From: Quercus robur
Lineage: Eukaryota > Streptophyta > Magnoliopsida > Fagales > Fagaceae
Length of the DNA stretch: 64,000 nucleotides
Direction of reading: 5' to 3'
NCBI RefSeq assembly: GCF_932294415.1
Contig: NC_065541.1
Span: 50,570,290-50,634,289, forward strand
The notes below the pieces were generated by a model that was not told the origin of the DNA, made no database searches, and saw nothing but the letters and a program-made list of their open reading frames with translations. Shown here in pieces: positions 5,951-61,377 of the stretch; the stretch's first letter is position 1; every line of letters begins with the position of its first letter. The translations under genes were made by a program, and so were the position numbers.

Positions 5951-5970
5951 GCTATGGCCTTGTCACGCTC

Positions 5971-8213: not shown

Positions 8214-8280
8214 TCGAGCGAATGAGTACCATGCGACTCTTATGTTCGGGAGGCGATAGTCTAGCTTAAACTTCTTTGCG

Positions 8281-8301
8281 TTTCCCACAGACGGTGCCAA
8301 C
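8281..8301 (-). promoter_or_regulatory. Primer binding site of element 1
   Basis: On the minus strand TGGCACCGTCTGTGGGAAA lies 2-3 bases inside the 5' LTR. Element 2 has the closely similar TGGCGCCATCTGTGGGG at the same place. The priming tRNA is not assigned here. Confidence 0.75.
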
Positions 8302-8799
8302 AGATGATGCCGTAAAATCACCAATGAGCTACACGATCCACGCTCGCTCAATCGAACAACCTGCAAGAAGAAAGAAGTGATCTCGCCGAGGGCACCGGTG
8401 TGGTGTCGGCCAAATACCCTCCGACGATCAAATTAGAATTGTTCTTAACTCTAGAGTGCTAGAGAGGGTAAATCATGCGTACCTTGATTTGTGAGGGTAT
8501 TAGGGCTTTTATAGTAGTAGGTTGACCTCTCCTCCTTGATGTAGAAGTCTTTTCCTTATAGGAATCCTCTTGAGTAATCCCAAACGTGATGGACAAGGCA
8601 TTTCCTTGTAGAGGGGATTAACGCGCGTATCTTCCGGAATGCTCTTAGCGCTAGGTTTCTGATTTCCTTGGAGACTCTACGTGTGCAACAAGAATATGGA
8701 ACTGCTCTAGGCCCTGGGCTCTACTGTTGCCGGCCCATGGGCTCGGATCCGTCAGGCCCAATGTGGTGAAAGTCCATTATGCTAAATTTTGCCCCTTCA
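8302..8799 (-). repeat. 5' LTR of element 1
   Basis: Direct repeat of 155-652 (about 97% by hand count). It ends GCCCCTTCA, and the target duplication ATAAA follows at 8800-8804. The minus-strand promoter of the element is expected here. Confidence 0.93.
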
Positions 8800-8804
8800 A
8801 TAAA

Positions 8805-9872
8805 TATTATTATACACATATATCAAACCCATTTAAGAAAAAATGAATGAGAAAAGAAGATAGGATAATTTCACTTTGACTAAACTTTCAAAGTGGAACG
8901 TTCTCAAGAAAACTACAACGTGGAAAAAAAAATACAAATAATAGAGTCTTTTCTTTTGGCAAAATATAGCTTAAATACGAGTGACTTTATGTACACTGTA
9001 TGGTGCTTTCTAGTTAAATGAGAAGAGATGCAAACCCTAGGTGTTGAATTGCTTAGAAAAATGGCACCCTTGTCTTGTGCCGATTTTGCAAGAGATAGCA
9101 GAGTAAATGGGGGGACATAGGAGTGCTGCTTTTGCTGCCCAAATTTGTCTCCTGCCCATATGTTTACCCGGTACCCAGAGATGGAGAGAGGAGAGAGAAA
9201 ATGTGGGTATTATTTTAACATTATTATTATTATCCTGAATTTAGCTTAATAAATCATTTATTTGAGTTGCTTTTGATTTCATCATGGTTAGGACTATGAG
9301 CATTTTAGGTTATGTTTGATATTTAGCATAATAAACTATAATATTTACTATTAATGAATTTTATTATTTTGTAGTGTTGTTAGTTTTTGTTTATTTATGA
9401 TTTTTTTTTTGTAGTGTTGTTAGTTTTTGTTTATTTATGATTTTTTTTCTAAGTGTCACTCTATAGTTCTTACAATCCTTCACTTGGTATCACAATTGTA
9501 GTAAGCATCTTGAGTCACTATAAAGTATCACTTTATAATTTTTATTATGCTTGTGTTTATTAATTGGAAAATAAATTTATTGTATTTGTATATGTGATTA
9601 ATTTGTAAAAAATATATGCTCATATATTGTAATTTTTTTATGTTAGTATTTACATATTAAAGATATTGTGAAGATGCATCTTCAATTGCATTATATAGTT
9701 ACTATTATATGTGTATGATTTTTTTTTCTCTCCATATTCGGAAACCAAGCAAACAATGGGCATGGGACAAATTTTGCAGCAAAGGTGGCACCAATTGGGC
9801 CACTTTTGTTTTCTCTCTCCTCTCTCCTATGTCCCCTCATTCTCTTTTCTTTTCTTGCAAAATTAGCGCTAA
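8805..9872. other. Intergenic, AT-rich; no gene
   Basis: No coding region seen. A 44-bp segment (TGTAGTGTTGTTAGTTTTTG and following bases) is repeated in tandem at about 9370-9450. Confidence 0.6.
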
Positions 9873-11614: not shown

Positions 11615-11619
11615 AAAAT

Positions 11620-12096
11620 TGATGATGCTAGGATTGTCAGTAAAGAGATTCGTCCAGACGGGGATCGTCCACGAGTTAACCCGATCCAGAGACAAGTCAA
11701 AAAGGAAATTAGGACACCGGTGTGGCGCTTGTCATAGAGCCTCCGATGCCAAAGTTAGAATAGCTAGCACTTGGAAAGAGAGTAATATGAGTGTTTTTGA
11801 GAATTCTTTTTGTGTACCCTTTTTGCGGGCTTTCTCAATGGGCATATATAGGATCTCTCTTCCTAGCCGTTGGCCTTGCTTTGATGGTCAAATCATTGCA
11901 AGATTCGTAACGCCTACGTGAGGTATTAAATGGATAGAATGATCTTCCAACAGTGCTGAAGACCGTTATTTGTTTATGTAACGCCTCGCCATAACTGAGG
12001 AACGATGGTTGAGTCTTTGTCAGGCAGATCTTCCTGGGCTTGGCTGATTCCAGTATCGTCCTTCTATGGTGGACGAATATATTTTCAGGACCATCA
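11620..12096 (-). repeat. 3' LTR of element 2
   Basis: Direct repeat of 20830-21306. Starts TGATGATGCT and ends GGACCATCA on the plus strand. The polypurine tract (minus strand TAGGGGGGCAGC) abuts it at 12097-12108. Confidence 0.94.
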
Positions 12097-12809
12097 GCTG
12101 CCCCCCTATTCCATGATCGTCCTCAATTCGGACGGTCCAGGGAATACGAGAGGTCCCTTTTTTTTTTTTTTTGAAAAGTTTTCTGACACTTGGGATTATG
12201 TTCTCCGCATTTATGGTCTTATGGCGGCGTGGCATGCATCGTGGCCATGTGTCCTTTTCTGATCAGTGAGCAGTTCTCGTTTCTGGTGACTGCCTTTTCA
12301 GTTTCCCGCATTTTTCAAGGCAAACCTTTTAACTCTTTTATTTTTTCATCTTTTCACTTTCCTTTTACATTTGACATCTCTGACTTCCATCCTTTCTCTC
12401 CACTTTCTCTGTGTCTGATTTCTCTGAGTTTACTGTTGCTGCTGCGCATTTCGCTCCACCCTATTTGGTTTTCCTCCTTATTTTCAGGTACGTTTGCCTA
12501 TTTCTACGCTTTTTCTCTTTTTTTTTGTTTTGTGTTCTTCTCTTTCGCATTCTTATTTTCCGTTTTGGGATTGCGTAACTTTCCTGAATGGTGGATTATA
12601 CTGAATTTAGGAATATCTCTCCCTCCATTGCCTTTCTTTTCGCTCGCTTAGGGGGGTTGTTAAATTCTTCTGGAGACCAATACCCACAAATTGGGGGTTT
12701 CGTTGTAAGGGATAGTGACCTTGATTTAGCCTTAGGTGATTTGTACCCTTTGTTGCATCAGTCTTTGTCTTGGTTTAAATCAGTCCGTGGGGTTCTTAGG
12801 GGGGAAGAT
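12097..12809 (+). promoter_or_regulatory. Presumed promoter and leader of the antisense gene in element 2
   Basis: A C/T-rich leader with a good donor at about 12488 (TTCAG|GTACGT) and candidate acceptors near 12609 and 12650, upstream of the ATG at 12810. This parallels the 5'-UTR intron of the element 1 antisense gene. No clear TATA box was fixed. Confidence 0.4.
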
Positions 12810-14809
12810 ATGGGGTCCGAGTTGGGATCAAGTGGTCAGGAGAGGGATTCGTCTTCTGGTGTGGTCGCAGACGGGGCTGTTAGGGACACAGCCACCTCCG
12901 TTCCTCCGTCTTTGTCCATTCTTCCTTCTACCTCTACAACATCCCGTCCCTTTCACGCTCTTAAAGAAAAGTGTACTTTGAAGCTGGATGTCTTTAATAA
13001 GTTTAGGGATAGATTCCAATTTCCTGATGAAACTAGGGCTCGTCTACCTAGGAAGGGCGAGAAGGCTTGTGCCTTTGCCCATGGTGAAGTTTGGTTTTAT
13101 GAAGCTGCTTTTTTGTGTGGCCTAAGGTTTCCCGTTCACCCATTCATTATGGAACTCTTAGATCACCTACAAATTGCCCCCGAGCAGCTTATGCCGAACT
13201 CCTGGAGGATCGTCATAAGATGTATGGTGATTTGGACGACCATAGCGGATGGAGACATGATCACTCTCAACAAGTTCACCTACCTCTACCGCCTAAAAGA
13301 GTCCAAGGAGTTTGGATATTATGAGTTTGTTCCCTGGGACAGGAGATCCCGTCTTGTAGTTGATCTTCCCTCGTCCTTCCGTTATTAGAAGTCCAGATAT
13401 TTCTTTGTTTCGGGCGATGGTTGGGAGACTTTGTCCGACGACTTTTGGGGGAATGTCCCTAGGTTGCTACGCCGATGGGAGACCCCTCATATTGGTGTGT
13501 TTTCCTTTTAAGCCTCTTTTCTTAGTACTCTGGCTGATTTTGATCATCCTTCTTACAATTTTTTTTTTTTTTTTTTTTTTTAGTGAAGGAGCGCCCTGAT
13601 CTTGAGAGCCAGTTTGAAGAAAGAGTTCAGGAGGCCATTAAGTACGCGAGGACAATTGACAATTTCGACGAGCTAGTTGATCCACGCACATTGGCCCGTC
13701 ATTGTCTAGGTCCTGAGCCTTCACTCTACGTCCTTCAAGCAATTGACCGAGAGCAGAGGAAATGTGAGTCGTCTTGACGCGCGCAATCATCCATTTTTCT
13801 TTCTTCCTTATTTGAATTCTTAGATTTTTCTTCCTTTTTGGTGCAGAGATGACGAGAAAATTTAACAAGGATATGTACGCCAAAATTAAGGCGAAGAAGA
13901 ATGAACCTCTTTCAAGTATTGGCCAGAAAACGTTAAGGATAACTGACAAGGAAAAACAAAAAGAGAAAGAGGTGGCTAAAAGGGGTTCGTCCGCCCCCAC
14001 TTTGGACGAGGGACGGACAGCTTCTCCTGCCATTTCCATTGAAAAGGTCCCTACCCCGAAGAAGCGGAAGACAGAGTATAAGGGCAAGGAGAAAGTGGGC
14101 TCCACCATTTGGGCTGATGTTGAGGCAACCATGACTCGAGCAAATGAGCTCTTAACTCCTGAAGAAATGAAGGAGATTTCCCTTATGCCTTCCCACGAGA
14201 TGGTGAGCCAGCATGTTCACAAGCTTGTCCAAGTAATTTTCCCCTTACTCTATTATTTCTTTCTTTGTTGATTCAAGTTTTGATGGTATTCTTTACTGTT
14301 AGGTGTTGGGAGAGACGGTGCACCTTACTACACAATTTTTGGCGAACGAGGAGAAGGCAGTCATGGCCACTTCGAAAGTGGAGGCTTTGGAGGCTGAAGC
14401 TTCGGGGTTGTGGAGGGATTTGATTGTTGCTATGGACGCTCATAATATCTCCAAGGAGCAAGTTAAAGTCCTGACCAAGCAACTTGGAGCTGAGAAACTG
14501 TTAACGAAGCAGAAGGATGAACTCCTCGTGTCAGCCAACCAGAGGATGAAAGCTGCAATTGCTAAGGCCGTCCTTGCTTTCCAAACGACAGAGGAATATA
14601 ATACTATTTTGTTCCAGTGGTACTTTAAGGGTTTTGAACTACTGAGGAGGTATTTAATGAAGCACGGACCTGGAACTGATCTGGAAAGCTTGGATTTTGA
14701 AGCCGTTGATAAGGAAATTGAGGCGGACGAGATGGCCCAAGCTGTTCAGGCTTCTGGTGAGGATCCTTCTGAGGCTGACAAGGGTGGCGACGACGCACCT
14801 CTGGCTTAA
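12810..14809 (+). pseudogene. Antisense gene of Tat element 2 (putative gypsy-type transposon domain), four exons
   Basis: The exons join in frame as 12810-13494, 13584-13763, 13847-14232 and 14303-14809, each with GT-AG borders; the sum is 586 codons. The start ATG at 12810 was chosen because the N-terminus then resembles that of element 1 (short, acidic, Ser-rich). The conserved domain (LKLDVFNKFRDRFQF, LCGLRFPVHPFIMELLDHLQ, LMPNSWRI) belongs to the plant putative gypsy-type transposon family of unknown role. Exon 3 is Lys-rich with a basic cluster (PKKRKTEYKGKEK), which could be a nuclear localisation signal. Exon 4 is helical, probably coiled coil. Two TAG stops interrupt the frame, at 13386-13388 and at the codon split over intron 2, so it is probably broken. 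It runs opposite to gag-pol and could yield antisense RNA. Confidence 0.75.
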
Positions 14810-14987
14810 CCAGGCTTCACTTTCCAAGACACCCCTTTTTTTTCTTTTCTTTTTTTGTGCCCTATATGTTTTTGGGGTTTTAGGCGAACAATATTTTTAT
14901 GCCTGGTATGTCTTAGTGCTTTCGAACAATTTGCATCTCTTTATATGTGATATGTTGGTATTTCGTTTCAATTGTAGATGCATTTTC
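14810..14987. other. 3' region of the antisense gene
   Basis: T-rich non-coding sequence between the antisense stop codon and the minisatellite; presumably its 3' UTR. Confidence 0.4.
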
Positions 14988-15425
14988 TTCGTCCTTATAG
15001 GGACTTGAAGAATCTTCGTTTACGTACTCTTTCCGTCCTTATAGGGACTCAAAGGAAAAATACTCTTTTCATCCTTGCGGGGACTTAGAGGCTTTTTGTT
15101 TAAATACTCTTTTCGTCCTTATGTGGACTTAGAGGATTTTTGTTTAAATACTCTTTTCGTCCTTATGTGGACTTAGAGGATTTTTGTTGAAGTACTCTCT
15201 TCATCCCTATCTGGACGATATCCACCCATTTAATGAATCTTATCGATGTTCATCCGTTCGAGGAGTATCATCGTCTTTTTGGTTTGGATGACTTACATTC
15301 ATTTAAGGAATCTTCTCGTCTTTTTGGTTTGGACAACATACATCCATTTAAGGAATCTTATCGTCTCTTTGGTTTGGACGATGTACATCCATTTAAGGAA
15401 TCTTATCGTTTTTCTGTTTGGACGA
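14988..15425. repeat. Two minisatellite arrays inside element 2
   Basis: Part one (about 14988-15215) repeats a roughly 50-bp unit with CGTCCTTATAGGGACT or CGTCCTTATGTGGACT. Part two (about 15220-15425) repeats a 57-bp unit with CATCCATTTAAGGAATCTTA and TTTTTGGTTTGGACGA. The position is the same as that of the array in element 1, though the units differ. Confidence 0.88.
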
Positions 15426-15570
15426 CCTTTTTGGTCTCTTGAGAATGAGATAATTAGAGCGCGCGAACTGCTGGATAATGCTCGTGTGATGCTAAATAAC
15501 AACTTACAAAACTCTAAATAATCATTTATTACATGACTTGTGTTAAAGAGTTCGAAATTAAATTATACAA

Positions 15571-16700
15571 TCAGGCTATGATTCCTTTTTCATAATACCT
15601 CTTTAGATGTTTGACATTCCAGGGACGAGGTAGCCTTTTTCCATCTAAGTCTTCTAGGTGGTAACTACCCTGTCGTGAATAGTGGACGACTCTATAGGAT
15701 CCTTCCCAGGTCAGACCGAGCTTGCCTTGTGCTGGATCTTTTGTTGCAGGTGTCACCTTCCGGAGTACTAGATCCCCGATGCTGAATCTTTTTAGTTTTA
15801 CTCTCTGATTGTAGTATTCAGCCATCTTTTGCTGGTACTTGGCCATTCTTTGGGAGGCTTGGTCTCTGACTTCGTCTAGGCAATCGAGGTTCAGCTTCAG
15901 TTAATCGTCGTTGCGTTGTTTGTCAAAGAACTCTCTCCTGAGGCTAGTAAGTCCTACCTCGACTGGGATGACTAATTCGGTGCCGTATGTTAGATTGAAG
16001 GGTGTTTCTCCTGTTGGTGTTCATGCCGTCGTCCTGTAAGCCCACAAGACACTCGGCAATTCCTTAAGCCATGCTCCCTTTCCCCCCATCAACCGAGACT
16101 TGATAATCTTGAGCAAGGTTTGGTTGGTTACTTCCATCTGTCCATTGGCCTGAGGATGTCCTGGTGATGAGTATTTGTTTTTGATGCCTAGGCTCGAGCA
16201 AAACAATCTGAACCCGTGGCTGTCGAACTGACGACCATTGTCTGAGATGATCGTCCTTGGTATCCCGAACCTGGAAACAATATTTTTCCATACAAAATTT
16301 TGTACCTTTGCCTCGGTGATCGTTGCAAGAGCCTCTGCTTCGACCCACTTCATGAAGTAGTCAATTGCAACGAGTAGGAACTTCATCTGTCTTTTTCCCT
16401 GTGGTAGAGGAACTTCATCTGTCTTTTTCCCTATGGTAGAGGGCCCATGATGTCAATCCCCCATTGTGCAAACGGCCAGGGTGAGGAGATGGTCGTCAAT
16501 TTTTTCCCCAGGGACTCGTTGAACATTCCCATACCTCTAGCAACTGTCACATCTTTTCACGAACTCCGTTGCGTCTTGCCGCATCGTGGGCCAAAAATAA
16601 CCTACCCTCATGATCTTCCTCACAAGCGACTTATGCCCCATGTGATCTCCGCCGATTCCCCTGTGTACCTTCTCCAGGACATATCTGGCCTCGTCTTCTT
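15571..16700 (-). pseudogene. Integrase of element 2, interrupted
   Basis: From right to left the minus strand encodes the zinc-binding region (VHRGIGGDHMGH ... CDSC, about 16690-16560), the catalytic core with VAIDYFMKWVEAEA, ISDNGRQFD and GQMEVTNQTLLK (16386-16021), and the C-terminal GDLVLR domain (15846-15571). Stops lie after CDSC, at 16021 (TGA, expected Arg) and near 15903. A 32-bp direct duplication at about 16380-16443 adds a further break before the core. Confidence 0.9.
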
Positions 16701-16794
16701 CTAAACATCTCAGGTAGGGCTGGGAGAAGCCCCTTTTGTAAAGTTCGTCGTTCAGTATTGTGAACCGGGCAGCTCGTTTTTGAACCTTTCTGGC

Positions 16795-17391
16795 TTATTT
16801 AGGATTTGGTGGTAATCGTCCATCTTTAAGGAACGATAAAATGGGATCCGTCCATCCCGAGCGTGTATGCACGGGGAAAGTTTGAAACTCTTTGATGATG
16901 GGAGAGTCTTGTTCTTCCATCCTCCAATCATTCATTTTATCCAGGTTGTCTGCTGAGGCACTTCGTGCTACCTCGTCAGCTTCTGCATTCTGTTCCCGTA
17001 GGATCTGAACAAACTCCGCGTGATGAAAGGTACTTACCAACTAGATCGTCAATTTGAGGTATTTTTGCATTCTCGTCTCTTTTGCTTCGAAATTTCCTTT
17101 AACTTGCCCTATGACGAGCTGCGAGTCGCTCTTGAGCACGATATTTTCAGCTCCAAGTGCCCGAGCTATTCTTAGTCCTGTTAGCAAGGCCTTGTACTCT
17201 GCTTCGTTATTAGTTATAGGGAATTTGAGCTGGACCCCATACTTGAGAACGTCTTTTTCAAGGGAAGTAATAACAACGCCTGCTCCGCCTCCTTTCTGAG
17301 TGGACGATTCATCAGTGTTTATCGTCCAAAGGTCTTTTTGGTCGCTAGTGTTCTCGGGGGTGGTGAATTCTGCTATGAAATCAGCCAACAC
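16795..17391 (-). pseudogene. Second (archaeal-type) RNase H of element 2
   Basis: The minus strand reads WTINTDESSTQKGGGAG, ITNNEAEYKALLTGLRIA, LKSDSQLVIGQV, then after a stop REQNAEADEVAR. The D-E-D-D pattern (TD, NEAEY, SDSQLV, AD) is that of the extra RNase H acquired by Tat elements, which is thought to assist removal of RNA from the RNA:DNA hybrid. TAG stops near 17042 and 16798 break the frame. Confidence 0.88.
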
Positions 17392-17652
17392 CTGAGCTTT
17401 TATGGCTATTCATGGATGGTATTCTATGTTGAACTGGCTGAGTTCGATAGCCCCTTGTACCATTCGTCCTGCGGCCTCGGGTTTGTTCATCGCTTTTTTG
17501 ATTGGCTGGTCCGTCATTACTATGATAGGATTAGCTTGGAAGTATGGACGAAGTTTTCTTGAAGCCACTATTAGGGCGAAGGTGATCTTCTCTATGTGAG
17601 GATATCGTGCCTCAGCACCCTGGAAAGCTTGGCTGACATAGTATACAGGAAG

Positions 17653-18596
17653 TTACAACCTGTTTTCTTCTCTGATCAACGCTGCGCTGACTGTCATGAG
17701 AGATACCGCTAAGTACAAGAATAAGTCTTTGCCTTCTTTGGACGGACTTAAGAGTGGGGGGTTGCTCAGGTAGTACTTCAACTCTTGAAACGCTATTTCA
17801 CACTCCTCCGTCCAGGCAAACGCTTTCTTCAAAGTCTTGAAGAAGGGAAGGCATTTGCTTGTGGCCTTAGAGACAAACCTATTGAGAGCTGCTACTCTTC
17901 CTGTGAGGGATTGTACTTCTTTGATCGACTTTGGTGAAGACATTTCGAGGATGGCCTTGACTTTCTCGGGGTTTGCTTCAATTCCCTTTTGCGACACCAT
18001 ATACCCGAGGAATTTCCCTGAGGAAACCCCGAAAACACATTTGGATGGGTTCACCTTCATGTTGTATTGTCTGAGCGTGTTGAACATCTCTTTGAGGTCG
18101 TCCAAGTGGTCCTCTTCCTCTTTGCTCTTGACGAGCATATCATCAACGTATACCTCCACGTTTCTCCCGATCTGTTTCTCGAACATCTGGTTCACCAACC
18201 TTTGATAGGTGGCCCCTATGTTCTTGAGTCCAAAAGGCATGGCCCGGTAGCAGTAGAGCCCCTGACTGGTGATAAAGGCAGTTTTTTCTTGATCTTCCTC
18301 AGCCATTTGTATCTGGTTATATTCGGAAAATGCGTCCATGAACATGAGAAGTTTATGTCCGGTGGTGGAGTCTACCAGCTGATCAATTCTGGGCAAGGGA
18401 AAATTGTCCTTCAAGCAGGCTTGATTAAGATCTGTGAAATTGACACACATTCTCCACTTCCCGTTTGCTTTCTTGACCATGACCATGTTGGCCAACCACT
18501 CAGGGTAGTGAACTTCCCGAATAAAATTGGCAACAAGCAATTTATTTACTTCATCCATTACTGCTTTGTTTCGTTCGGGGGCAAGACTCTTCTTCT
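17653..18596 (-). pseudogene. Reverse transcriptase and start of first RNase H, element 2
   Basis: About 301 open codons with the RT landmarks WRMCVNFTDLN, FMDAFSEYNQI, FGLKNIGATYQR and the YVDD active site, followed by the thumb and the beginning of the RNase H domain (FAWTEECEIAFQELK). It ends at a TAA near 17655, probably a mutated Gln codon; downstream sequence to 17392 continues the domain in frame. RT copies the element RNA to DNA. Confidence 0.92.
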
Positions 18597-19400
18597 CTAC
18601 TGGATGGGCTTCTTCTCTGGGTCAACATTCAGGCGATGTTGGATGAGGCTTGCTGGGATCCCTGGCATATCCTCGTGGCTCCAAGCAAATACATCGAGGT
18701 TATCTTTCAAGAAGTTGATGATCCCTTCCTTCGTCCTGGGACTTAGGTTCATCCCTATTTGGGTCGTTTTCGCTGGACTTCCTTCAACCAACTCTATCGT
18801 TTCTAGCTTCTCAACAATCTCTAGTGTTTTTTCCTCGATTGTCCACGTATGGTTCTCTTTTGAGCCGAGGACGGCCTGATAACACTCTCTTGCCAATACC
18901 TGGTCTCCTTTTATCTCACCGACCCCCTGTTCTATTGGAAATTTTACCTTCAAACAGTACGTGGAAGTAGCAACCTTCCAGCGGTTGAGCGTAGGTCGTC
19001 CTATTATCACATTGTAGGACGAGGGTGAATCTACCACCAAGAAATTGTGCTGGTTGGTTACCTAAAGGGGGTATGAGCCGGCAGTGACTGTTAACATCAT
19101 TATCCCCCTGGGGTATACCTTGTCTCCACTGAAACTGACGAGGGGGGACTCGAAAGAACGAAGCCTTTTTGGGTCTAGCTTTAGTTGCTAGAAGGCGGAA
19201 AGGTAAATAATGTCAACCGAGCTCCCATTGTCTACCAGAACCCTCCTTGTATTGAACCCCTCGATCATGATCATAATGACCAGTGGGTCATCATGAGGTT
19301 GCTTTATACCCCTTGCATCTTCTTCTGAAAAGTACATGTCTTGGTTCGTCCGTCTTTGCTTCAGAGGAGGTAGACTATGAACACTATTTACCTGCCTTTG
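18597..19400 (-). pseudogene. Aspartic protease region of element 2
   Basis: The active-site motif [12 protein letters not shown] lies near 19230. It is followed by [28 protein letters not shown] and the [18 protein letters not shown] linker into RT. Two TAG stops (near 19190 and 19060) interrupt it. Confidence 0.85.
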
Positions 19401-19526
19401 GTGTGACTTCCTGAGGGATCTGAATGATCCCTCTGCGGTTGGTCCCCCTGTGATAGTTTTTATTTCCCCTAATGCATTCTGTGGACGAGGCGATGGGCAG
19501 TCTTCGTCCCTCTTTGAGTCCCCGTG

Positions 19527-20761
19527 CTAACCTTTCTGGCTGTATTTGTTGGAATCTCCCATTTTCACATATTGTTGCAGTTTTCCTTTCCGTATAAGTT
19601 CTTCAATCTGCTTCTTCAAATCTCTACAATCCTCTGTGTAATGCCCATGGTCTTTGTGAAAACAACAGTATTTCCTCTTGTCGCGCAGACTAGGCGATGA
19701 ATGGAGTGGTCTTGGCCATTTAAGAGATGGTTTGTCTCTTATTTCCATCAGAATCTGGTCAACAAGCATCACTAACGGTGTGAACTTCACTGGACGAGGG
19801 TTTTTGTCCCCCCTCCGTCTGTTTCCTTCGTTATTCTGTCGATCAGCTCGATCTCTTTTTTGTCCTCTCTGATCATCCTCCTTCTCCTTCTTCTTTTCCT
19901 TACTTTTTTTTGCTCCATCAATGGCTGCTAGAGTTTCTTCAACGTTCATATACTTATGTGCTTTCAATAATGCCTCGGCCATCGTCTTGGGGGGATTTTT
20001 GGCCAAGGAAGCCACAAAATCTCTGGACTTCAACCCTGCCTTGAAGGTCGTGAGCTGTACCTTATCATTCGCCTCGTCTACTTCCAGCATTCCTCGGGTG
20101 AAGCGTGTTACATAAGACCTCAATGGTTCCTTCTCTCCTTGTTTGATGGTGAGCAAATGGTCAGCAGTCCTTTTTGGACATTGCCCGCCGACAAAATGAC
20201 GGACAAAGGAACTGCTTAGCTGCTCAAAGTTATCAATGGATGACGTTGGCAAATTGTTGAACCACTCCCTGGCTGCTCTTTTGAGGGTAGTGGGAAAGGA
20301 GCGGCACAAAATCTCGTCAGGGGGTTGTTGAAGACCCAGAGTCGTCCTGAAGGTATTCAAGTGATCCAGTGGGTCTTTTAGCCCCCGTCGAAGGGCTCTA
20401 GTTGTGGTAGACGAAACTTGGAGGGCACCGGGCACTCTTGGACCGCCACAGTGAAAGGTGAATCCGTCTTCCTGACTATCCTTTCTAAGCTTTGGTTCAT
20501 CTTCCTTTTGATGGCTTTTCTCAATTCGTCCATCTCTTTCCTCATCTCCCTGAGGAGATTTGAGCTCGCCTCTTCTGGGGTGTTGGTTCGTCTCTTGTTA
20601 CTATCTCCATCGTCATCCCTGTTGACGTCTGTACAGTTATCTTCCTGTTGCAGCCGCTGCCTCATCTCTTGGTTCTGCCTGGTAAGTTCCTCCACAGTGG
20701 CTGCGAGTGACTGAATTTCTAGAGCCAACGCGGCAGGATCTGGGTTAGTGTTGGATTCCAT
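19527..20761 (-). pseudogene. Gag of element 2, one frameshift
   Basis: The N-terminal part starts at the ATG at 20761 and has a coiled-coil-like stretch (VEELTRQNQEMRQRLQQE). A one-base frameshift near 20385 moves the frame; the rest (to 19527) carries the gag core ([31 protein letters not shown]), a Lys/Arg/Glu-rich tract and a zinc knuckle ([14 protein letters not shown]) intact here. No other stop lies inside these two stretches. Confidence 0.9.
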
Positions 20762-20809
20762 CTAGACTTGTGAGTTAATTGGGACAAATCACGTGTTGAA
20801 TAATACTGT

Positions 20810-20827
20810 CCCCACAGATGGCGCCAA
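20810..20827 (-). promoter_or_regulatory. Primer binding site of element 2
   Basis: Minus strand TGGCGCCATCTGTGGGG, two bases inside the 5' LTR. Confidence 0.8.
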
Positions 20828-20829
20828 AC

Positions 20830-21306
20830 TGATGATGCTGGGATCATCAGTAAAGAGATTCGTCCAGACGGGGATTGTCCACGAGTTAACCTGATCCAGA
20901 GACAAGTCAAAAAGGAAATTAGGACACCGGTGTGGCGCCTGCCACAGAGCCTTCGATGCCAAAGTTAGAATAGCTAGCACTTGGAAAGAGAGTAATATAA
21001 GTGTTTTTAAGAATTCTTTTTGTGTAACTTTTTTTCGGGCTTTCTCAGTGGGCATATATAGGATCTCTCTTCCTAGCCGTTGGCCTTGCTTTGATGGTCG
21101 AATCATTGCAGGATTCGTAACGCCTACGCGAGGTATTAAATGAACAGAATGATCTTCCAACGGTGTTAAAGACCGTTATTTGTTTATGTAACGCCTCGCC
21201 ATAACTGAGGGACGATGGTTGAGTCTTTGTCAGGCAGATCTTCCTGGGCTTGGTTGATTCCAATATCGTCCTTCTATGGTGGACGAATATATTTTCAGGA
21301 CCATCA
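20830..21306 (-). repeat. 5' LTR of element 2
   Basis: Direct repeat of 11620-12096, same length (477 bp), followed by the target duplication AAAAT at 21307-21311. Confidence 0.94.
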
Positions 21307-24245: not shown

Positions 24246-25671
24246 GTATGTTTGCACTCATTCCTTCTTTATTGTTTACATTTGGTCTTTTTGGTCTTTT
24301 CCCACATACAGATTTCACTATGTCATGCTCTTGTGTGTGTTTTAAGTTTATGTGCATAGTTACAAATTCCTATAGGTGGAGATCTACAATGTGTTGTACC
24401 AGGAATAGTGATTGATCTTTGGACTTAAGTTTTAACACATTAGGATGTGGAAAGATACACACTTTGATAGTATGATAGATGTAGTAGAGCACTCAAAGCA
24501 CAGTTTCTTTTTGGATAATTTTTAACGTGTCCAATAGATTTATTATGGTCCCAGAATCATCACATAAATATTATGGATTGGATCCATCTGTGTATGAAGT
24601 CATGCCAATCTAATATTGGTTATGGGGCTCTATTTTTTTTTTGTTGGTCCCAATATGGCCTCCTTAGATAATAAGGGTTGACTTTAAACTATTAAACTCT
24701 AGTACAAAGGTTAAGTTCTCAATTGCTTTCAGACAATAGACAATAGCGGATCCGGCATAGGCTTCTGGGCTCAATTCGTTTTTGTAATTTTCACTGTAGA
24801 ACATTCAATATTGCCCCAGTGATTTAATCTGTGCACCCATAACCTATTGGACTTTTGAAGATTAAAAGCTTTGTCATAAAAAAACTAAAAAAGGACATGT
24901 TTTATGTCAAAAGTATTTCAATAGTGATGGGGATCTCACTTTTGCAGATTTAAAGCTACTCTCCTTTATCATAGTCATAGAAATGGCATTTTATGTCAAA
25001 ATATTTCAATTGCTATGGGCGTTTTGCTTAGATAGATGAGGTGGTATTATTTATCACAGGGATATATAACACGGCGCTGCACTCACATAGGATGGATCCC
25101 ATAACCCAACCCTATGTAAGTGTGGTGTTGTATGGGCAGTGTTTCTTCCACAGTGTGTGGATCCACACACTGTGAAACAGTTTTTTCCCATGTTGTATAT
25201 TCCTGTGATACAAAATAAAAATTCTTAATTATAGGGGTTTGTTTGAACAACCTCAACTCGTGTGGTGTACGTATGCATACATTTTCATTATCACTCTTTT
25301 AGAAATAATTATCTCATGCATCTTATACATGCATAGTCCCTTTCATAGTGTGTGGGGTCTATAGCGGTATGGGACCCACTCACTATGAGAAGGAGGGTAC
25401 ATATATTCGATACATGAGATACCTTCTCCTCTTTTGAACTGTATCTTTCATCGGACTATTTCAACCATGCCTTCTCTTACCCCAAAAGATCTATATAAAT
25501 AATGGCTACTCAATGTGAACTGCATAAGAATTCTGCATTGCTACCTCCTACAACTAGCATATCTAATTTTCATCTCTCTCACCCTGAATTAAGCAACAGA
25601 GTTCTTAGATCCACTGTTTTGCATATTTTATTAAGCTTTTCAATTCACATTTTTCCAGCATCTTATTAGAG

Positions 25672-28439: not shown

Positions 28440-28971
28440 AAGTCCTTTTATTAATGATTTTGAAATTTTATGCGAAACTTTTTTTATTGCTTGCTGTAAT
28501 TTGGATTTTTTGTTCTCGATTATTTGATCAACCAAATCGAGATGCAAATCGTAAGAGAATATTCATTATGTGATATCATTTGATTGGGATTTTATCTTAA
28601 TCAGAATCCTGAATTCTTGTTGTCTGTATCCATGGTTTGACTACTACCAAATCTCCTCAAGTCCATAAAGCAATTCTTTTTCTTTTCAAATGTTTCAGGT
28701 GTTAAATTATGTTTAATTCAAAGAATTGTATTTTTTTTTTTATTGAATTGTTCAATGGACATGGAAAATGCTTAGATCCATATGGAATGTTGACTTGCAT
28801 TGTGTTTGATTGTCAAGAAACTTTTGCAATAAATTATTTCAAAACAAAAGTGGAGCACAAAGAACTTATATATTTTTCCTGAATTGTTTGATTTGCAAGA
28901 ATAATGTACAAGAAAGTAGTCAAATCTTTCGCATCTAGCATAACTATTTGAGTACAATAGAAAGTAGTAAA
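28440..28971. other. 3' flank of PPA; no gene
   Basis: AT-rich DNA, probably including the PPA 3' UTR and, near 28970, the 3' flank of the DCL1-like gene. No other feature seen. Confidence 0.5.
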
Positions 28972-28997
28972 AATTATAGGGTTGCAACTCGTTGCCA

Positions 28998-30782
28998 TCA
29001 TGAGTACAATGTGTTTATGAGTTCCAATAGAAGAACAGCAGCAGAATCTTTGGCCTTTTTGACGCTTGGCATAGGATCTCCCACACATTCATCTGTCCAG
29101 CCTCTATCAGTAGTATTCACGCGTACAGCAAACGTAAACTGCTTTGCATGTGCTGGGCCACCCTCGTTCACAAGCCTAAAATTGCAAGTATCAAATTCTC
29201 AATTAGCAATTTATCACATGATTGACTTATATGCATCTTCAATATGGAAATTATCACATGATTGACTTATATGCATCTTCAATATGGAAAATGTACCCAA
29301 AAAAAAAAAAACCCATTCATTGTTTCCTTACCTATAGAATGGCATGGGCCAATTTCTATGACAGCAGATTTCATTCAACATTTGTCTCGTAAGTGTGTGG
29401 CTCCCATTCTTCTTTTTCTTCCCATTTTCATCGTTGTCCTCATTAGCTTTCTTCCCATTTTCATCGTCGTCCTCCTTAGCTTCAGCCATTTCCTTCTCTT
29501 TGAAAGCAGCAAGCGCATTTCTTGCGGCTAGTTTCTGTGCCATCTTCTTTTGTGGATTCTGAGCAATTCCTATCTGGACACCATCAAAAAAGACTTCAAC
29601 TGTAGCCATATTTCCACTTCTACTTGCTTTGTATTCCAGGCGTTCAGCCTGTTGCCGGCATCGTTCCTGCAGCTCACGCACAGGATGCATTGGTAGTGTA
29701 TCTGGGGTAACCATTGGATGCAAGAGAGGTTGAAACACCTGGAGACAATGAGGTTTCAAAGTTGAGTAATTTCCTATATCATTTCTTTTTATTCAAATCC
29801 CAAAATGGAAGGACAAAAAAGAGGAATGGACAATAGAAAACTTGGTCTCTTTGCTGAAACTAACCTTCCAAACAACTGAAATCTCCTGTCCACTGTCAAG
29901 AAAAATGGCACCAGCAATGGATTCAACAATGTCACCAAGAACTTTAGGAGCTTTACAGTCACTCAGACCAAAGAAGTTGAATCCTGGCTTTAACAATTCG
30001 TTTTGAAATTCTTCTACAAAGTCCCGAATCTGCACACAGAATCCAAAAATCATGTCATGAAGATGACATATAAGCAACTAACTAGATTTAGGGAGAGGAA
30101 ATTATGGCCAGGCCGCACAGCTTCCTTCAATACATGTCAACTGTTTAACAAAAGGCGCTTTGAAATTCATTGAATTGGTGATCCACCACGGTCCAATTTG
30201 GTCAAACCAGCAATTAGAAGCATTTGATAAGAAATAATCCAATGGCATAACGCTCAAGTATAAAAAATTTTTTGATAAGTAAAAAGGTTGAAAAAAAAAG
30301 CTTGTGTCATAAAGTATAAGGCTTCCTTGCGGAGTTTAGAATGGAAAGGAAAGACAAGACAGGAATGGAAGAAGATTGTAGGCTATAAAAAGAGAATAAA
30401 TAAATAGAAAGAAAACCTGTTTTTCAAGAGCGGTGGAGGCATGGCGAAGGTGCACATGGAGATTATTTTTGACAGCAACACGTGCAAAATATTCGTTGTT
30501 TACGGAAGCAGCTCGCAGATCAGTCAAGCGGCCCGTGGGAAGATGTTTGTAATGGAAGAACAGATGCCTTGTTATGAGATCAGCTAAAATAGCATCACCG
30601 ATTAACTCCAAACGCTTATAGCAGGGTACTCCAGAAGATGATAGCTGTGAACCATGAGTAATAGCTTCCACCAAAAGCCCCCTGTTATTAAACTTCATGT
30701 TCAAAGCACCTTCTAAGGCATCAAAGTTTATACTTCTAAGTATCTCCTCGGGAACATTAACATTTGATGTGCTGCACTCCAT
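28998..30782 (-). CDS. Truncated tandem copy of DCL1: RNase III domain plus two dsRBDs, 371 codons open
   Basis: Exons on the minus strand: 30782-30417, 30029-29865, 29738-29332, 29175-28998; all four junctions and reading phases match exons 17-20 of the full DCL1 at 35377-51558. The ATG at 30782 (MECSTSNVNVPEEIL) is an internal Met of the parent, which becomes the first codon because homology breaks there. The RNase III domain keeps the acids of the catalytic site (E59 and D63 in RLELIGD; D155 and E158 in LGDIVES). dsRBD1 covers about 195-255 and dsRBD2 about 297-370. There is no stop or frameshift; length changes are multiples of three (one codon near SQLSSSG, and 33 bp in the acidic linker). 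Exon 18, however, shows about six amino-acid changes from ten base changes, pointing to weak constraint. If expressed it would resemble an RNase three-like (RTL) protein; it may equally be a young pseudogene. Confidence 0.75.
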
Positions 30783-31065
30783 CTCAAACCCCACCAGCAA
30801 CCACCGAAATCAAAGCTTAGTACCACCGAACCACCGAGAAAGAAACAGAGAGAAGAGACAGAGGAGAGAGAGAGAGAGAGAGAGAGTGAGGAGTTGAATA
30901 AAATAAAAAACAAAATTTATGTTTATCCTCAGTGAACAGTGAGCATTAGGATTGGGACAAATTCCAGTTCCTATTTTACCAACCAAGCCACTGTTTTACC
31001 AACCAAGCCACACTCCCCGGAGAACGGCATCTAAAATTTGGATGAAGTACTATATTTTTAGTCCT
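30783..31065. other. Sequence upstream of the DCL1-like copy, transposon-derived
   Basis: On the minus strand this is a CT-repeat leader running into the ATG at 30782. Positions 30860-30945 share GAGTTGAATAAAATAAA and CAGTGAACAGT with the MITE-like element at 22669-23385. A short tandem repeat (TTTTACCAACCAAGCCAC twice) is at about 30975-31013. Confidence 0.5.
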
Positions 31066-35376: not shown

Positions 35377-38300
35377 TCATGAGTACAATCTATTTATGAG
35401 TTCCAATAGAAGAACAGCAGCAGAATCTTTGGCCTTTTTGACGCTTGGCATAGGATCTCCCACACATTCATCTGTCCAGCCTCTATCAGTAGTATTCACG
35501 CGTACAGCAAACGTAAACCGCTTTGCATGTGCAGGGCCACCCTCGTTCACACACCTAAAATTGCAAGTATCAAATTCTCAATTAGCAAATTCTCACATGA
35601 TTTGACTCACTTATATGTATCTTCCACATGGAAAATGTACCCCAAAAAAAAAAAAAAAACATTCATTGTTTCCTTACCTATAGAATGGCATGGGCCAATT
35701 TCTACGCAAGCAGATATCATTCAACGTTTGTCTCGTAAATGTTTGGCTCCCATTCTTCTTTTTCTTCCCATTTTCATCATCGTTCTCCTTAGCTTCAGCC
35801 GTTTCCTTCTCTTTCAAAGCAGCAAGCGCGTTTCTTGCAGCTAGTTTCTGTGCCATCTTCTTTTGTGGATTCTGAGCAATTCCTATCGGGACACCATCAA
35901 TAAAGACTTCAACCGTAGCCACATTTCCACTTCGACTTGCTTTGTATTCCAGACCTTCAGCCTGTTGCTGGCATCGTTCCTGCAGCTCACGCACAGGATG
36001 CATTGGGAGTGTCTCTGGGGTAACCATTGGATGCAAGAGAGGTTGAAACACCTGGAGACAATAAGGTTTCAAAGTTGTGAAATTTCCTATATCATTTCTT
36101 ATAATTCAAATCCCAAAATGGAAGACAACAAAGAGGAATGGACAGTAGAAAACTTGGTCTCTTTGCTGAAACTAACCTTCCAAACAACTGAAGTCTCACG
36201 TCCACTGTCAAGAAAAATGGCACCAGCAATGGATTCAACAATGTCACCAAGAACTTTTGGAGCTTTACAGTCACTCAGACCAAAGGAGTTGAATCCTGGC
36301 TTTAACAATTCATCTTGAACTTCTTTCACAAAGTCCCGAATCTGCACACAGAATCCAAAAACCATGTCATGAAGATGACATATAAGCAACTAACTAGCTT
36401 TAGGGAAAGAAAACTAAGGCCAGGCCATGCAGCTTCCTTCAGTACATGTCAACTGTTCAACAAAAGGTGCTTTGAAATTCATTGAATTGGTGGTCCACTA
36501 TGGAATTTGGTCAGACCAGCAATTAGGAGCCTTTGATAAGAAATAATCCAATAGATGATTCAAGTATAAAAGAATTTCTGTCATCACGTAAAAAAGAATT
36601 TAAAGGCTGTAAATAGAAAGAAAACCTGTTTTTCGAGAGCGCTCGACCCATGCCGAAGGTGCACATGGAGATTATGTTTGACTGCAACACGTGCAAAATT
36701 TTCATTGTTTACAGCAGCAGCTCGCAGATCAGTCAAGCGCCCCGGGGGAAGATCTGTGTATGTGAAGAACAAATGCCTTGTTATGAGATGATCTAAAACA
36801 GCATCACCGACAAACTCCAAACGCTGATAGCAGGCTACTCCAGAAGATGGTCGTGAAGCATGAGTAATAGCTTCCACCAAAAGTCCCTTGTCATTAAACT
36901 TAATGTTCAAACCACCTTCTAAGGAATCAAAGTTGATACTTCTAAGTATGCTCTCGGGAACATTTGATGGCCTTGACATGCACTCCATCTCATCGGCATC
37001 AAACTCCACTTGAATGCCAATCCATTTCATGAGGTGATTAGCAGCAATTTTCCCACCTTCAACATAATAAACTCCAATAAGTGCTTCGACAACATCTGCA
37101 AGTGTCTTGCTGGAGAGGACTCTATATGAACTCGAGTCACCCTCAAGCTCACCATCTTCCATTTCGTCATTTTCATATCCATCAATGCACTGATCCACCC
37201 CACGTTCAGTCTCAGTAAGTGATCCATCCTGATCAAATAAGGATGATTCTCCATCCTTGGTATCCTCATCAAAGACAGGCAGAACCCCAGGAGCAGCCCA
37301 ACGAGATGGAGCAAAGCGGTCTGCTTGGATATATGATTGAAGCCCTTTGACCAGTGCAAACTGATACAAAACCATGTTACTCACCTTTTGTTGTCTCATC
37401 CTAGTAAGCTGACCCTCATGTTTCTGCGGGTATCTAAGAAAAAGAAATCGACTAACAACCCATTTTAGGTAAGCATCTCCCAGAAGCTCTGCTCGTTCAT
37501 AACAGAAAGTCTCCTGGCATGAAGCAGCAGTCAAGGCTTCCAAGATCTGTAGATAAAGGAAGGCTGTCAGTTAACAAGTAGTAAATAAGCATTTTAATTC
37601 AAATATCTGAGATCATCAAATACCTTTGAAGCAGGGACAGGATAGTTTATTATATCTTTAAGCTGAACTGCAAGTAACATGCTTTCAACCCTCCTCATTA
37701 TAGAGGGCAATCTCTGGGCACCACGAACAAGTGATCCAGGAAGTGGGTGTACTAAGCACAGCTCTGGAGGAAGGAACACATAGTATGTTTTGTCAAGATT
37801 CTCTTCAGTTTCGCCTTCATGTCCTTCAACAGATATAACAAACTCTATTAGCTCAAGAAGCAACAAATTTTTAGCAAACCTTACAAGGCAGGAAAAGGAG
37901 AGCATACCTTCCTTGTGTTCGAATCGAGGGGACAGAAGATTCTTACAATATGAGACACCACGTCCTCTAATTAGGGGTTGGTGCTTATACATCAGCTCAA
38001 CTCCATACCTATTTAAAGAAAACCCAATAGCCAAAAGCACCTTTTGTTGTGCAAGAAGAAACAGAAAGCTTTTCTAATCTGTAAGGATTCATAAACTATT
38101 GCCAAATGCGAAATGTGTGGAACAAAGACTTATATAGCCCCACAGTTACACCTGACGATAGTCAACTATATCCTTCACAAATTAAAATTAGCTTTCCTCT
38201 TCTTCAGGCACAACATCTGAGGTGCAATGTGGCTAGTTGGTTGATAAATTAGAATCAAACAATTTCTAGACAACATGGGAAGAGGGGGAGAAAATAGGGA

Positions 38301-41247
38301 TTCTTTTCTTTTTATTTTGGGGGAAGGGGGGTGTTCATAAAAACAAGTTGAAAGAAACTAAGAGGCAGACAATTTGAAATTGAAACATTTATCTTACTTT
38401 TGCTTATAGTAATCAGCATACGAGCTGTACTCAAGAGGACCAAGATAGCCTTCTTTCCTTGGGAAAGAATTCTCTGCAGTCATCTCGTAGCGTACTGAGT
38501 CCACATAAAACCTCTTACCCGAGTGAGCAGCTGTTAAAATTCTCCCAACTAAATCTTCTGCACTCATACAACCATCAGCCATCATCAATTTACCTTTGGT
38601 CAAATCTGCATGCTTTGGCAATTCCACATCCTCCCAACTAGGAACCAATCCTGAAGCTTTCACAACATCAAACTGTGCCACAGCTCCTCTGATTCCATAT
38701 GTGGGATGGGATTTCTGTCCAAAAGCCATCCCATGACGCAATTTTCCAAACCCATACTCCCTTCTGTCTCCACCAAGTGTCCTCTCGTTTGTACCAAGAT
38801 AAACATCAGGTCGAGCTCTTTGAAGGGGATTATTCCATGCCTTTGTATTAATAATTTTTTCAATCAGATCCCAATCAATTTCTCTCATAGGATCTACAGA
38901 CTTATCGCTAACCACGGGGACAAACAAATATGCCTTTGCAGGATCCCAAGGAGTAGTGGAAGGTTCAACATCCACATCCAGTACAATGCTCATCAATCTC
39001 ACATGAAAACTCTTAAGGGATGCCAACTGCAAACCATTCAAAGTAGGAATAGCATCAGTAACTGAATATATAAAAAGTAAAAATGGTTTAAATAAACTAT
39101 ACTCAATTGGGTAACCAACCTGACTTTCAGTCATATCTATTGACCCCTTGAAGACAAGCGATGCCTTTGTAGTCATGGTTCGAGCGATAAATAGATCCAT
39201 CGACATCGATAACACCTAATGACAATAAATGTTATCAGTGGAAAAAAAAAAAAAATGGATTCACCATACAAATGACACATGAAAAGAAAATACCTCTGCA
39301 TCCAGCCCATTGCCGAAAAGTACTGCAAAATCTGAAACTTGAGTCAAGAACGGATCTTTTGAAGAGCCAAAGTTTTCACATTGAACGGCATACATATTAA
39401 GATGAAGCAAATTTGAGTCGTTACAAACATCTCTTCCAGATAAAATCCATTCTCCCTGAAAGACCAGAGACAGTTAAGCAAGTATGCATTTTAAAGATAA
39501 CCATTATAGAAAAAGACACCTCAAACATGGTTGTTGGAATAATAAAATGCATTATATGTGTAATATAGAGTCCAACACAAGTACAATTTTGTTAGATGTA
39601 GTACACAACACAATACAAAGCTAAAATTGCAATGAAGTTAAATTAAACCATTTGGCTTTTTCAACTGATTCACATAATCATTTCACATCCCTTTGAAGAT
39701 GCTGTGTGAATAAACTTTAATTACAAGAGATTATCTATTGCCCACTAATGTTTTTGATGCTCTCTCTCAGCTTCAACATTTTTTTCTCTACAGGAAACAT
39801 AACAAAGAAAATTTTTTCATGACCTATTTACTTAAAAGAGAATCACTTAAATATAACTTTCCAAGAAGTCAGAAGTTCTACCTTTTTCAGTAAAAAAAAG
39901 AGAAGTCAGAAGTTGAAAAACACTTTGTTTTTGCCAGTTTAATATTACAAATTCAGAAATTGGAACTTGAAACTAAATATAAAAAAATTAGTCATGGACC
40001 ACAATATGGTAGTTTATAGTATATAAAATTATGCTGTTACAACATATGGCTACCGTATGCTTCATGGTTTTTCTTCCCAGCCCACCCCTCCCCCAACACC
40101 CCCCCCCCACCCTCTCTCCCCCAGGTAAGGAGAAACTTATTATGTTAAAACTTTATGTGGAAAGTTAAATTTCTTAAATTTAAGCTTTGATGAACCACAT
40201 TATCATGAAATGTTTTATTAGATATATTTCTAAGTTTTCATATGTCCCTCTCTTAGTTATCACGTCCTTTTGCCTCATCTTCCCTTCTTCAAATGTTATA
40301 CAAATCTGGTGAATTTAATCATAAGCAATATGATACTACTACCAGACAAGATAACAAAATATATAAAGTTCTACACAACACCATCAAAAGTGGAAACTCT
40401 TTTCTCAGCCACTGCAGTAATTTTTACCTACAAGAACTAAAATTTATCAAAGTTAAAAATTCACATGGGTAGTTTTTTAAGTTGCCACATAGTGGGTTCA
40501 AGGAACTTTCCTCCAAATTCTGTCCTTCCTAAATATTCTGTATACAAGATTATCAACTTTGATAACTTATCAAAAAAAAAAAAAAAAGATTATCAACTTT
40601 GCTAGGCGCAAATGCACAAGATTAAAGAGAACTTATCATTTTCTTAAACTCTAATGAATATACAAAAGTTATCTAGTTTGCTAGTCATAAAAAAAAATAT
40701 TCAAAAAGAATTTTAGCTACCCCACTAAAGTTATGCTAGATAACTATTTTTCATAAAGTATAATTCATCAATTATCATATCTCTATTGAAATTTTAGCAA
40801 TTTGAATAAATTTTTTATTAAAAAAAATCTTCCCTATTCCAAATACTATAAGTCTATAACAAACCAAATCACCATTATTAATGTAATTTTTCAAAAGAGA
40901 AAAGAAAAATCTCTCCTATTCTTTCAAGCGCTATTATCCATTACATTAAATCTTCCATATCTGGGTTTTATTTCTTTATTTTTGTTAAGTAATAAAAGTT
41001 TTATTGATGAAGAAAAATACTTTATGTTCACAATGATGAACACAAAGTAACCTTAAAAATTACAAAAAGATTAAAAAAGCATTCATTTCTACCATATTTA
41101 GGTATTACTTTAAGCAGTATTATAAATTTAACATTTTGAGTCTCAATCAATGTTGACAGACAATTGAACATGAAAGCAAATAATAAAAAAAATCTGCAAT
41201 TTCCATGTATTACCGGTCCATAAATCAAACTTATTACTCATAACTGA

Positions 41248-58680: not shown

Positions 58681-61377
58681 TAATTAAATGCTAGAAGAAG
58701 TTGTATAATGCAATTATGAAACCCATTATCCATGTAGCAATACATTGACATTGTGTTTTGTGCCCCTATTAATATCTACAACTACAAGAAACAAAAGGAG
58801 GACAACGGTGTGGGGGCTTAAAAACAGAAAAAAAGGGGGTCCGTAACATGTGAACATTTGCATGATTGATATACGGACAGAAACTTCAAATCATCATCAT
58901 CATTACATTATGATATTGGATACAAATGCAATGAAAAATTGGTGAAATTAAGCTCACAATATTCTCACTCTAAAAGGGGTTTGTTGCTCCATGCATGTTG
59001 CATGTGAATAATAAAAATTCAAAGATTATGAGTAACCAACTTACCAAACAAATGATCTTAAGTTGCATTTGGATATTTGAATTTAGATTTATTATAAAAT
59101 AGTGGACTTAAAATTCCTTAATTCTAAATATGTAAATTTTAATTTTTTTTCATATATATGAGAATTTGAAATGATAAGATTTAAACTATCCAAACAAGGT
59201 ATTTTGAATTTAATAACCGAAATTCAAATCCACGTGTCCAAATTTTGCAATCCAAATGCACTATTATTATAAACTAAATTTCGCTAAAGTGCAAGGATCA
59301 GCATATATAACTTTTTCTGATAAGAATGGGCATATATAATTGTTGTCATTGTTCTTGTTCCAAGACATCAAATAAAACTGTCAAAGACTCAAAATCCTCT
59401 TGGCTTAGTGATAAATCCAACTTGATATAAATTAAAAAAAGAAAAAGAAAAGATTAAATGCTCATTTATTAACTAAGAGAATGCACAGAAGGGGCCGTAC
59501 ATCTCGGCCTACACAGCACAAATCTAGGGGGGTGGGGGCGATTTGAAATGGGCATGGGCCCCAACCTGTTACGAAAATTGGCCCGGAGGACTTGACTTTA
59601 GAGGTGAGCTTAGCATCGCTAGGTAAAAAAAGAAAAGAAAGAATAGGCCCAGGGGGCTTGATTTTCCTTTCCCTAGTGAAAAAAAGAGTGACATCAAATA
59701 AACTCTTGCCTTTATCTTTTTAGTTGAGTGGAATAGTTACTCAACTAACCAGGGTTCTTACTTCCTACCTAGACGTTTTTTGTTTTTTTGTTTTTGTTTA
59801 TTTTAACTAACTAGCCTTAGACTACCATAAGAAGGAATGGGATTGAGTAATATTTTTATTATTTAATGAATATAAATAAATTATTTTTTTATATATTATG
59901 TAATAAAGCTCATAAAAGTAAATTGATATAAATTATCTTTTTCATCTTCTTAATTTTTTCCTCAACTAAATAAAAGAGTTTTTTATTTTTTCACTTTTAT
60001 ACCCCAACCAAACACACTTAGGAAAAATTAAAATATTTTTTATTTCTCGACTTTTCTATCCCCCGAGCCATTAGTTAGCTTACAGACATACCTGAAAGGG
60101 CTAAAACCATATTTAATTTCATAATATATATATGTTTCAACAGGGACGAAACTAGGTGAGGTTCGGGCCCCCCTAGTTCTTAAGAAATAAAAAAAGTATA
60201 TATATATATATATATTAGGTATATCTTTTACAATTTTATATTTAGGCCCCCACTTTCAAAACTTTTGGGCCCCCTCCTTTACAATTTACATTGACTTTAT
60301 TGTAATAGGCTAATAGCATTTGCATTAGTTGTAAAATAATATAAGACCCCAAATTTGTCCAATCAATCCCAAAATACACTCACATCAATTTATGCATCAT
60401 TGTGCAACAATACATATGTGCTATAGTAATTATGCAAATTTACACAATCACTGTAGCACAAATGTATTTTTTGCAAATTTACACAATTACTGTAGCACGA
60501 ATGTATTTTGTACAATGATACATAGACTAATGTGGGTGTATTTTGGGTTGATTGGGAAAATTTACACAATTATTGTTGCTATGCAAATGAATGTTTTAGG
60601 AATTATTTAGATTGAGGACAATAGTTTTTGGTTAAGGAAGAGAAAGATGATTTGAGATAATAATAAAAAATTAACAAGGAAATAGTATTATGATGAAATG
60701 TAGTGTAAAATAAATAATTGTGAATATATAATTTTTTTTTAATAAGTAAGTTATTATGCTAAAATAGATAGAAACTTTTACATGAGTTGATGCAAATGCT
60801 TTAATGTTGTAAGAAACAATGAAATTTTTGTGTTTTTGCCTTTATTAGTAGATAATTGCAGTATAATGTATTTTTCTTTGTTGATTGTTTGTTAATACTA
60901 AATAGATACTTATGTGAAATTTCATGATTTTTTTTTTTTACTTATACTTTAGCCTCCCTTAACTGGAAATCCTAGGTCTGTCCCCATGTCAACTTGTGTT
61001 TGAATAACAACACTTACACATGAGATCACTACTAGTGCTGGTTTAAGTGCACAATCATAATGTGACACTTGAACATGTTGTGGATTTGATTATATATTTG
61101 GGTGTATCTTTAGAGTTTCTCAAAGACCACTGATTTTTTTTTAACCTAAATTGGGTTTTTAAAAGATACTCTTTTAAAAAAAAAAAAAAAAATTAGCTTA
61201 CTATTTTTTAAAATATACCCTACTGAGTTCTCACTCTATTTTCCCTTTTACAAATTACAACTCCAAATAAATATTGTTTCTTTATTCTTAAAAAAAAAGA
61301 AAATTCAATCATGGCCACAAACATTGATTTGGGCAATTTGTCTAATCTCACCAATACACTTCCCCATAGAATGCCAG
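58681..61377. other. Intergenic; no gene
   Basis: AT-rich. 60140-60990 may be a decayed DNA transposon with ends AGGGACGAAACTAGG and, inverted, GGGGACAGACCTAGGA. Otherwise simple repeats, such as (TA)n at about 60197-60214. Confidence 0.5.

Follow-up and report, generated by a model that had tools for sequence, protein, structure and literature searches.

The DCL1 gene and its intron 14

The window (the whole stretch of 64,000 nucleotides of Quercus robur DNA that was analysed) contains a complete DCL1 gene on the minus strand, the coding region of which extends from 51558 to 35377 and is divided by our spliced model into 20 exons and 19 introns, encoding 1983 residues with no internal stop codons. 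Arabidopsis DCL1 (7eld_A) aligns with the joined protein over residues 15-83 and again over residues 158-1983, giving 3292.5 bits in total. As GT-AG introns alone were permitted in the model, intron 10 (42198-42118) is off by a few residues, the bases themselves suggesting a GC-AG intron (CAG/GCAAGC at the donor), while intron 14 is unaffected. The longest intron in the model is intron 2 (50185-45139, 5047 bases), followed by intron 11 with 2479 bases. A miR162-like target site spans the border of exons 12 and 13, with 12 of its 22 bases in exon 12 (39294..39305, minus strand) and 10 in exon 13 (39206..39215, minus strand); it lies at coding position 3276 (0-based) and carries one mismatch to the known site. 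PMC4833791 places the Arabidopsis miR162 site at this same exon 12/13 border.

Intron 14 (38009..38397, minus strand; 389 bases, GTAAGA...AAATAG) separates exon 14 (39026-38398) from exon 15 (38008-37908), both on the minus strand. Translation over the exon 14/intron 14 border reads lysine followed by a stop, so that upon retention of the intron the stop codon TAA at 38394..38396 (minus strand) comes directly after exon 14.

A partial second copy of the DCL1 3' end (residues ~1624-1983), together with DNA beyond that end, is found on the same strand at 28970-30786 and 25243-25655, with 85-87% identity in three main pieces. This copy is incomplete and perhaps a pseudogene, and the matches found so far stop short of intron 14. 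The PAZ exon of DCL1 was also used in a pattern search of two non-plant collections, where 5 stretches in viral contigs and 19 in genome contigs matched but none was a relative. The window further holds two LTR retrotransposon-like elements. The one at 156-8797 is bounded by 495-base repeats (156-650 and 8303-8797, 97% identical) with gag and integrase domains between them, and includes a tandem array at 3621-4169 with a period of ~42-45 bases, as judged by self-matches. The other, at 11616-21306, has 481-base repeats (11616-12096 and 20826-21306, 94% identical) enclosing gag and reverse transcriptase.

A long stem in the 3' half of the intron

An earlier note on this DNA had placed intron 14 at 38397-38009 of the minus strand, with a MIR838-like hairpin within it, and had proposed that this segment be folded. 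The 20-exon model agrees with the note on the coordinates and strand of both, and the fold is indeed stable: -110.7 kcal/mol compared to -73.9 for shuffled sequences (z -6.72), with none of 100 shuffles equally stable. In a repeat run the z value of intron 14 was -7.68 (again 0 of 100), whereas 34 other segments of DCL1 introns ranged from -2.87 to +1.93; these controls comprised introns of up to 500 bases taken whole, introns 2 and 11 taken as 389-base blocks every 400 bases, and intron 10 as modelled. Among 5102 segments of 230 bases drawn from both strands of the window and corrected for G+C content, the intron 14 hairpin ranks third by fold strength, and the two ranks above it belong to a single inverted repeat at 60346-60580, counted once per strand. 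This repeat is MITE-like, its two strands are similarly stable (-103.6 and -94.6), and it draws four weak Rfam hits, all below their gathering scores.

The hairpin itself occupies 38024..38240 (minus strand), a foldback of 217 bases in which the 5' arm (38240-38137) pairs with the 3' arm (38123-38024). The stem runs from 38240/38024 to 38137/38123 and holds 83 base pairs, 70 Watson-Crick and 13 G-U; the extensive pairing that the earlier note described is thus present, at a somewhat higher count than the ~75 bases given there. The stem folds at -95.4 on the coding strand and at -70.6 on the opposite strand (window shifted by 5 bases), which is as expected if the coding-strand RNA is the relevant molecule. 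Upstream of the stem there are 157 intron bases and downstream of it only the last 15 (38009..38023, minus strand), a pyrimidine run and AG. Like a mirtron the structure is an intronic hairpin, and PMC12825306 labels miR838 a mirtron, but with 157 bases before the stem and 15 after it the splice sites do not define its ends and we reject a strict mirtron. A DCL1 exon as the source of the arms was also considered, and no convincing match was found within the window.

Likeness to MIR838

The full length of RF03974, the Rfam family of MIR838 (model positions 1-170), aligns to the coding strand at 38246-38019 and scores 30.9 bits, the E-value being 0.00045 when 441 bases are searched, 0.00061 with 601 bases and 0.065 with the whole window. 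In a permissive search of the whole window this hit was the top one of 4227 families, and it was the single MIR838 match among the window matches listed (E up to 1). The match is visible in the permissive search only, as the Rfam search at the gathering threshold yielded no hits and the gathering score of RF03974 is 190. Because the alignment is full length but its 30.9 bits fall far under 190, the hairpin is a diverged homologue of MIR838 and not a member by the Rfam cut-off. Of the 155 aligned bases 89 are identical to the Rfam consensus, and in the model alignment the loop region takes up 73 bases here as compared to 9 in RF03974.

The likeness was also followed in each arm by comparing sequence only to the Rfam consensus. 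The 5' arm scores 54, mononucleotide shuffles reaching a mean of 35.4 and none of 1000 scoring as high, and the 3' arm scores 52, with a shuffle mean of 33.6 and 2 of 1000 as high. When the window was taken as 638 blocks, the score of the 5' arm was tied, besides the hairpin's own (both strands), by two overlapping blocks at 8812-9400, and that of the 3' arm was reached by two blocks only, both holding the hairpin.

Within the 3' arm, a putative miR838-3p-like 21-mer lies at 38048..38068 (minus strand). Using the letters of ath-miR838 and aly-miR838-3p given in a table of PMC9495863, it is identical to the former at 17 of 21 positions and to the latter at 18 of 21. As the earlier note had stated for Arabidopsis, the 3' half is the part that is kept, the terminal 11 bases being identical to ath-miR838 and the terminal 13 to aly-miR838-3p. 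In an ungapped scan of all 21-mers on both strands of the 64 kb, this segment was the top score for both miRNAs, the runners-up reaching 16 (ath-miR838) and 17 (aly-miR838-3p) of 21. The match to RF03974 is not independent of that to the 21-mer, as the segment lies inside the model; what it adds is the rest of both arms.

The pairing table predicts a star 21-mer at 38190..38210 (minus strand), with 2-base 3' overhangs. The predicted duplex (38068-38048/38210-38190) leaves 3 positions of the mature strand unpaired, both interruptions being symmetric, and a 4x3 internal loop lies below its lower end, at a distance of 15 bases on the 5' arm and 11 on the 3' arm. Such spacing is near, not exactly at, that of the 15-base rule of plant dicing. 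The annotation of plant miRNAs calls for a duplex with few mismatches, 2-base 3' overhangs and a foldback of less than 300 bases, all of which are found in the predicted duplex and its 217-base foldback. The putative mature strand starts with C, not U, and the predicted partner starts with U; AGO1 loading favours a 5' U and would favour the partner strand. Since the mature sequence is not kept exactly, the 21-mer starting with C and its partner with U, the structure may be more important than the miRNA.

Pairing was compared against the 63 pairs of the RF03974 structure. In the model alignment, which is built by the family model and is hence biased toward the family structure, 49 pairs are standard, 11 are broken and 3 are gapped. 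Of the 60 comparable pairs, 32 are unchanged, 5 are standard with one side changed and 12 with both sides changed; shuffles averaged 37.0 standard pairs and 4.2 with both sides changed, and none of 10,000 reached 49 or 12. On five sequence-only alignments the signal was weaker: 5-9 double changes, reached by 96-563 of 3000 shuffles, and 38-42 standard pairs of 56-61, reached by 40-481 of 3000. As the excess of double changes weakens on these alignments, we consider compensating changes in the stem plausible, not proven. In the model alignment the pairs over the 21-mer are better kept (14 of 19 unchanged) than those elsewhere in the stem (18 of 41). A symmetric alignment of the arms showed 10 changes of the G-U type versus 2 of the A-C type (two-sided p 0.04). 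Five repeats served as controls on the plus strand, four of which were balanced while the tandem array at 3896-4155 was skewed 12 to 1, and as one control was skewed too we take the G-U excess in the arms as suggestive only.

The hairpin and Arabidopsis MIR838 thus share the gene, intron 14, the coding strand, a long stem, a miRNA (putative here) in the 3' arm and an alignment along the full length of the model; they differ in the score, 30.9 bits against a gathering score of 190, in the bases that depart from the consensus, and in the 21-mer with its 17 of 21 positions and its C start.

A probably cuttable structure in DCL1 and its possible age

The founding Arabidopsis paper is reportedly that of Rajagopalan 2006. 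The features of the DCL1 intron-14 hairpins of Arabidopsis and Medicago recur in the window, namely position in intron 14, the coding strand, a stable hairpin, a miR838-like segment and a premature stop. In Arabidopsis, DCL1 cuts the intron-14 hairpin and non-productive fragments result (PMC4833791, PMC12825306), although PMC9023350 found no or only inefficient co-transcriptional processing of miR838. In Medicago truncatula the homologous intron carries a hairpin with a miR838-like sequence, three 21-nt RNAs, none of them a miR838 homologue, were found, 9-22% of the mRNA retains the intron and retention brings a stop codon, while 5' RACE gave no cleaved fragments according to the portion of PMC4833791 cited, which names the generality of the DCL1 loop as an open question. 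Our comparison with Medicago draws on the published description, and small RNAs were observed there whereas the duplex described here is predicted from the DNA. Physcomitrella likewise has a hairpin miRNA within DCL1 for which feedback was proposed, miR1047; it resides in another intron, intron 7, is unrelated in sequence and is described as independent in origin (PMC4429486).

In the portions of the papers cited, Salvia DCL1 introns yielded no precursor (PMC4429486), a search of grape introns gave no prediction matching miR838 or miRBase (PMC2717091), miR838 was considered seemingly Arabidopsis-specific (PMC4053937), and the text of PMC2945783 does not mention it. It was predicted from ESTs in cotton, with letters differing at the 3' end (PMC3210780), reads named miR838-5p were reported in tomato and broccoli, and miR838 was predicted in Brassica rapa, one instance being at an intron-exon place. 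In the passages concerned, these claims from outside Arabidopsis (cotton, tomato, broccoli, Brassica rapa) are not tied to intron 14 of DCL1, Medicago being the sole exception, and we therefore left them out of the argument. In our literature search, which covered few of the subscription journals, we met no wider survey of DCL1 intron 14 for such a hairpin.

We consider it probable that the hairpin represents MIR838 in diverged form, an orthologue kept in the same DCL1 intron, and that DCL1 cuts its own pre-mRNA there in a process with which splicing competes. In the unspliced transcript the 83-pair stem would form from the 3' half of the intron, to be recognised and cut by DCL1, and the cut would sever the enzyme's own message in competition with the splicing of intron 14. 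Branch sites are usually at least ~18 bases upstream of the intron end. Since only 15 bases separate the stem from that end, the branch site would fall within the stem, and we infer that folding and splicing would be mutually exclusive. At high levels of DCL1, more of its transcripts would be cut, or would remain unspliced with an immediate stop, and DCL1 output would go down. It is probably the diceable structure that is conserved rather than a particular miRNA; the anatomy described above fits a structure that is conserved and cuttable while its product drifts, and the cutting itself is a prediction.

Several observations speak against this proposal, among them a score far under the Rfam cut-off with a whole-window E-value of 0.065, double changes that weaken on sequence-only alignments and the C at the start of the 21-mer. 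The little or no co-transcriptional processing of Arabidopsis miR838 (PMC9023350) argues against a strong race with splicing. The Medicago RACE without cleaved fragments and the three Medicago RNAs, none of them the miR838 homologue (PMC4833791), the Salvia introns (PMC4429486) and the grape introns (PMC2717091), each as given in the portions cited, also count against the proposal. Part of this evidence also fits an ancestral, conserved structure of intron 14 that controls splicing, through retention and an immediate stop, and is hardly cut, the small RNA being a by-product. Such a function would agree with a hairpin base 15 bases from the intron end, over the probable branch region, with the stop directly after exon 14, with the drifted mature sequence and its initial C, and with both the inefficient processing in Arabidopsis and the Medicago intron, retained in 9-22% of DCL1 mRNA with no cleaved fragments found. 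We nevertheless regard it as rather unlikely, for it leaves the better preservation of the pairs over the 21-mer to be explained, Arabidopsis MIR838 is described as cut by DCL1, and in Medicago the stem is matched by 21-nt RNAs (PMC4833791).

Two further origins seem to us much less probable. The hairpin could be a separate inverted repeat, such as a MITE or a recent inverted duplication, resembling miR838 by chance as its pyrimidine-rich arm is TTC-rich and easily miR838-like; the second-best 21-mers at 16-17 of 21, the blocks at 8812-9400 that tie the 5' arm and the similarly strong repeat at 60346-60580 lend this some credit. Yet the MIR838 model matches along its full length with both arms alike, no other copy of intron 14 is present in the window, where the longest other exact match is 16 bases, and the gap between strands (-95.4/-70.6) exceeds that of the 60346-60580 repeat (-103.6/-94.6). 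From the strand difference, the lack of a second copy in the window and the model match, we judge a MITE origin unlikely and chance resemblance altogether very doubtful. The idea that the stem is the decaying leftover of an ancestral MIR838 hairpin, functionless today, is slightly more improbable still: the mature part has drifted, the score is low and 11 of 60 consensus pairs are broken, but 83 pairs and a z near -7 persist at a consensus identity of 89/155, where a functionless stem would be expected to have lost more.

Returning to the diverged orthologue cut by DCL1, its homology to MIR838 is supported by the position in intron 14, the 3' arm, the 21-mer and the full-length alignment to RF03974. 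As this homology is supported, the DCL1 loop is likely older than Arabidopsis, which the earlier note had also proposed; the idea is not new, since an age beyond Arabidopsis is already in print for one legume (Medicago, in the portion of PMC4833791 cited), and the present window adds another genome and a match to the family model. Our data further suggest that the loop is more widely kept than is often assumed. A bolder view, which we offer tentatively and hold to be somewhat short of an even chance, is that the hairpin in intron 14 is an autoregulatory element of great age in eudicots. Selection would hold on to a structure that DCL1 can cut, lying over the branch region, and let the small RNA drift, and MIR838 would be an old RNA switch mistaken for a young, lineage-specific miRNA. 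That a diverged homologue was found by a covariance model might mean that the hairpin can be followed through other plants with intron position and structure as guides in place of the mature sequence, and such tracing would make the age, the loss and the role of the DCL1 loop directly testable.
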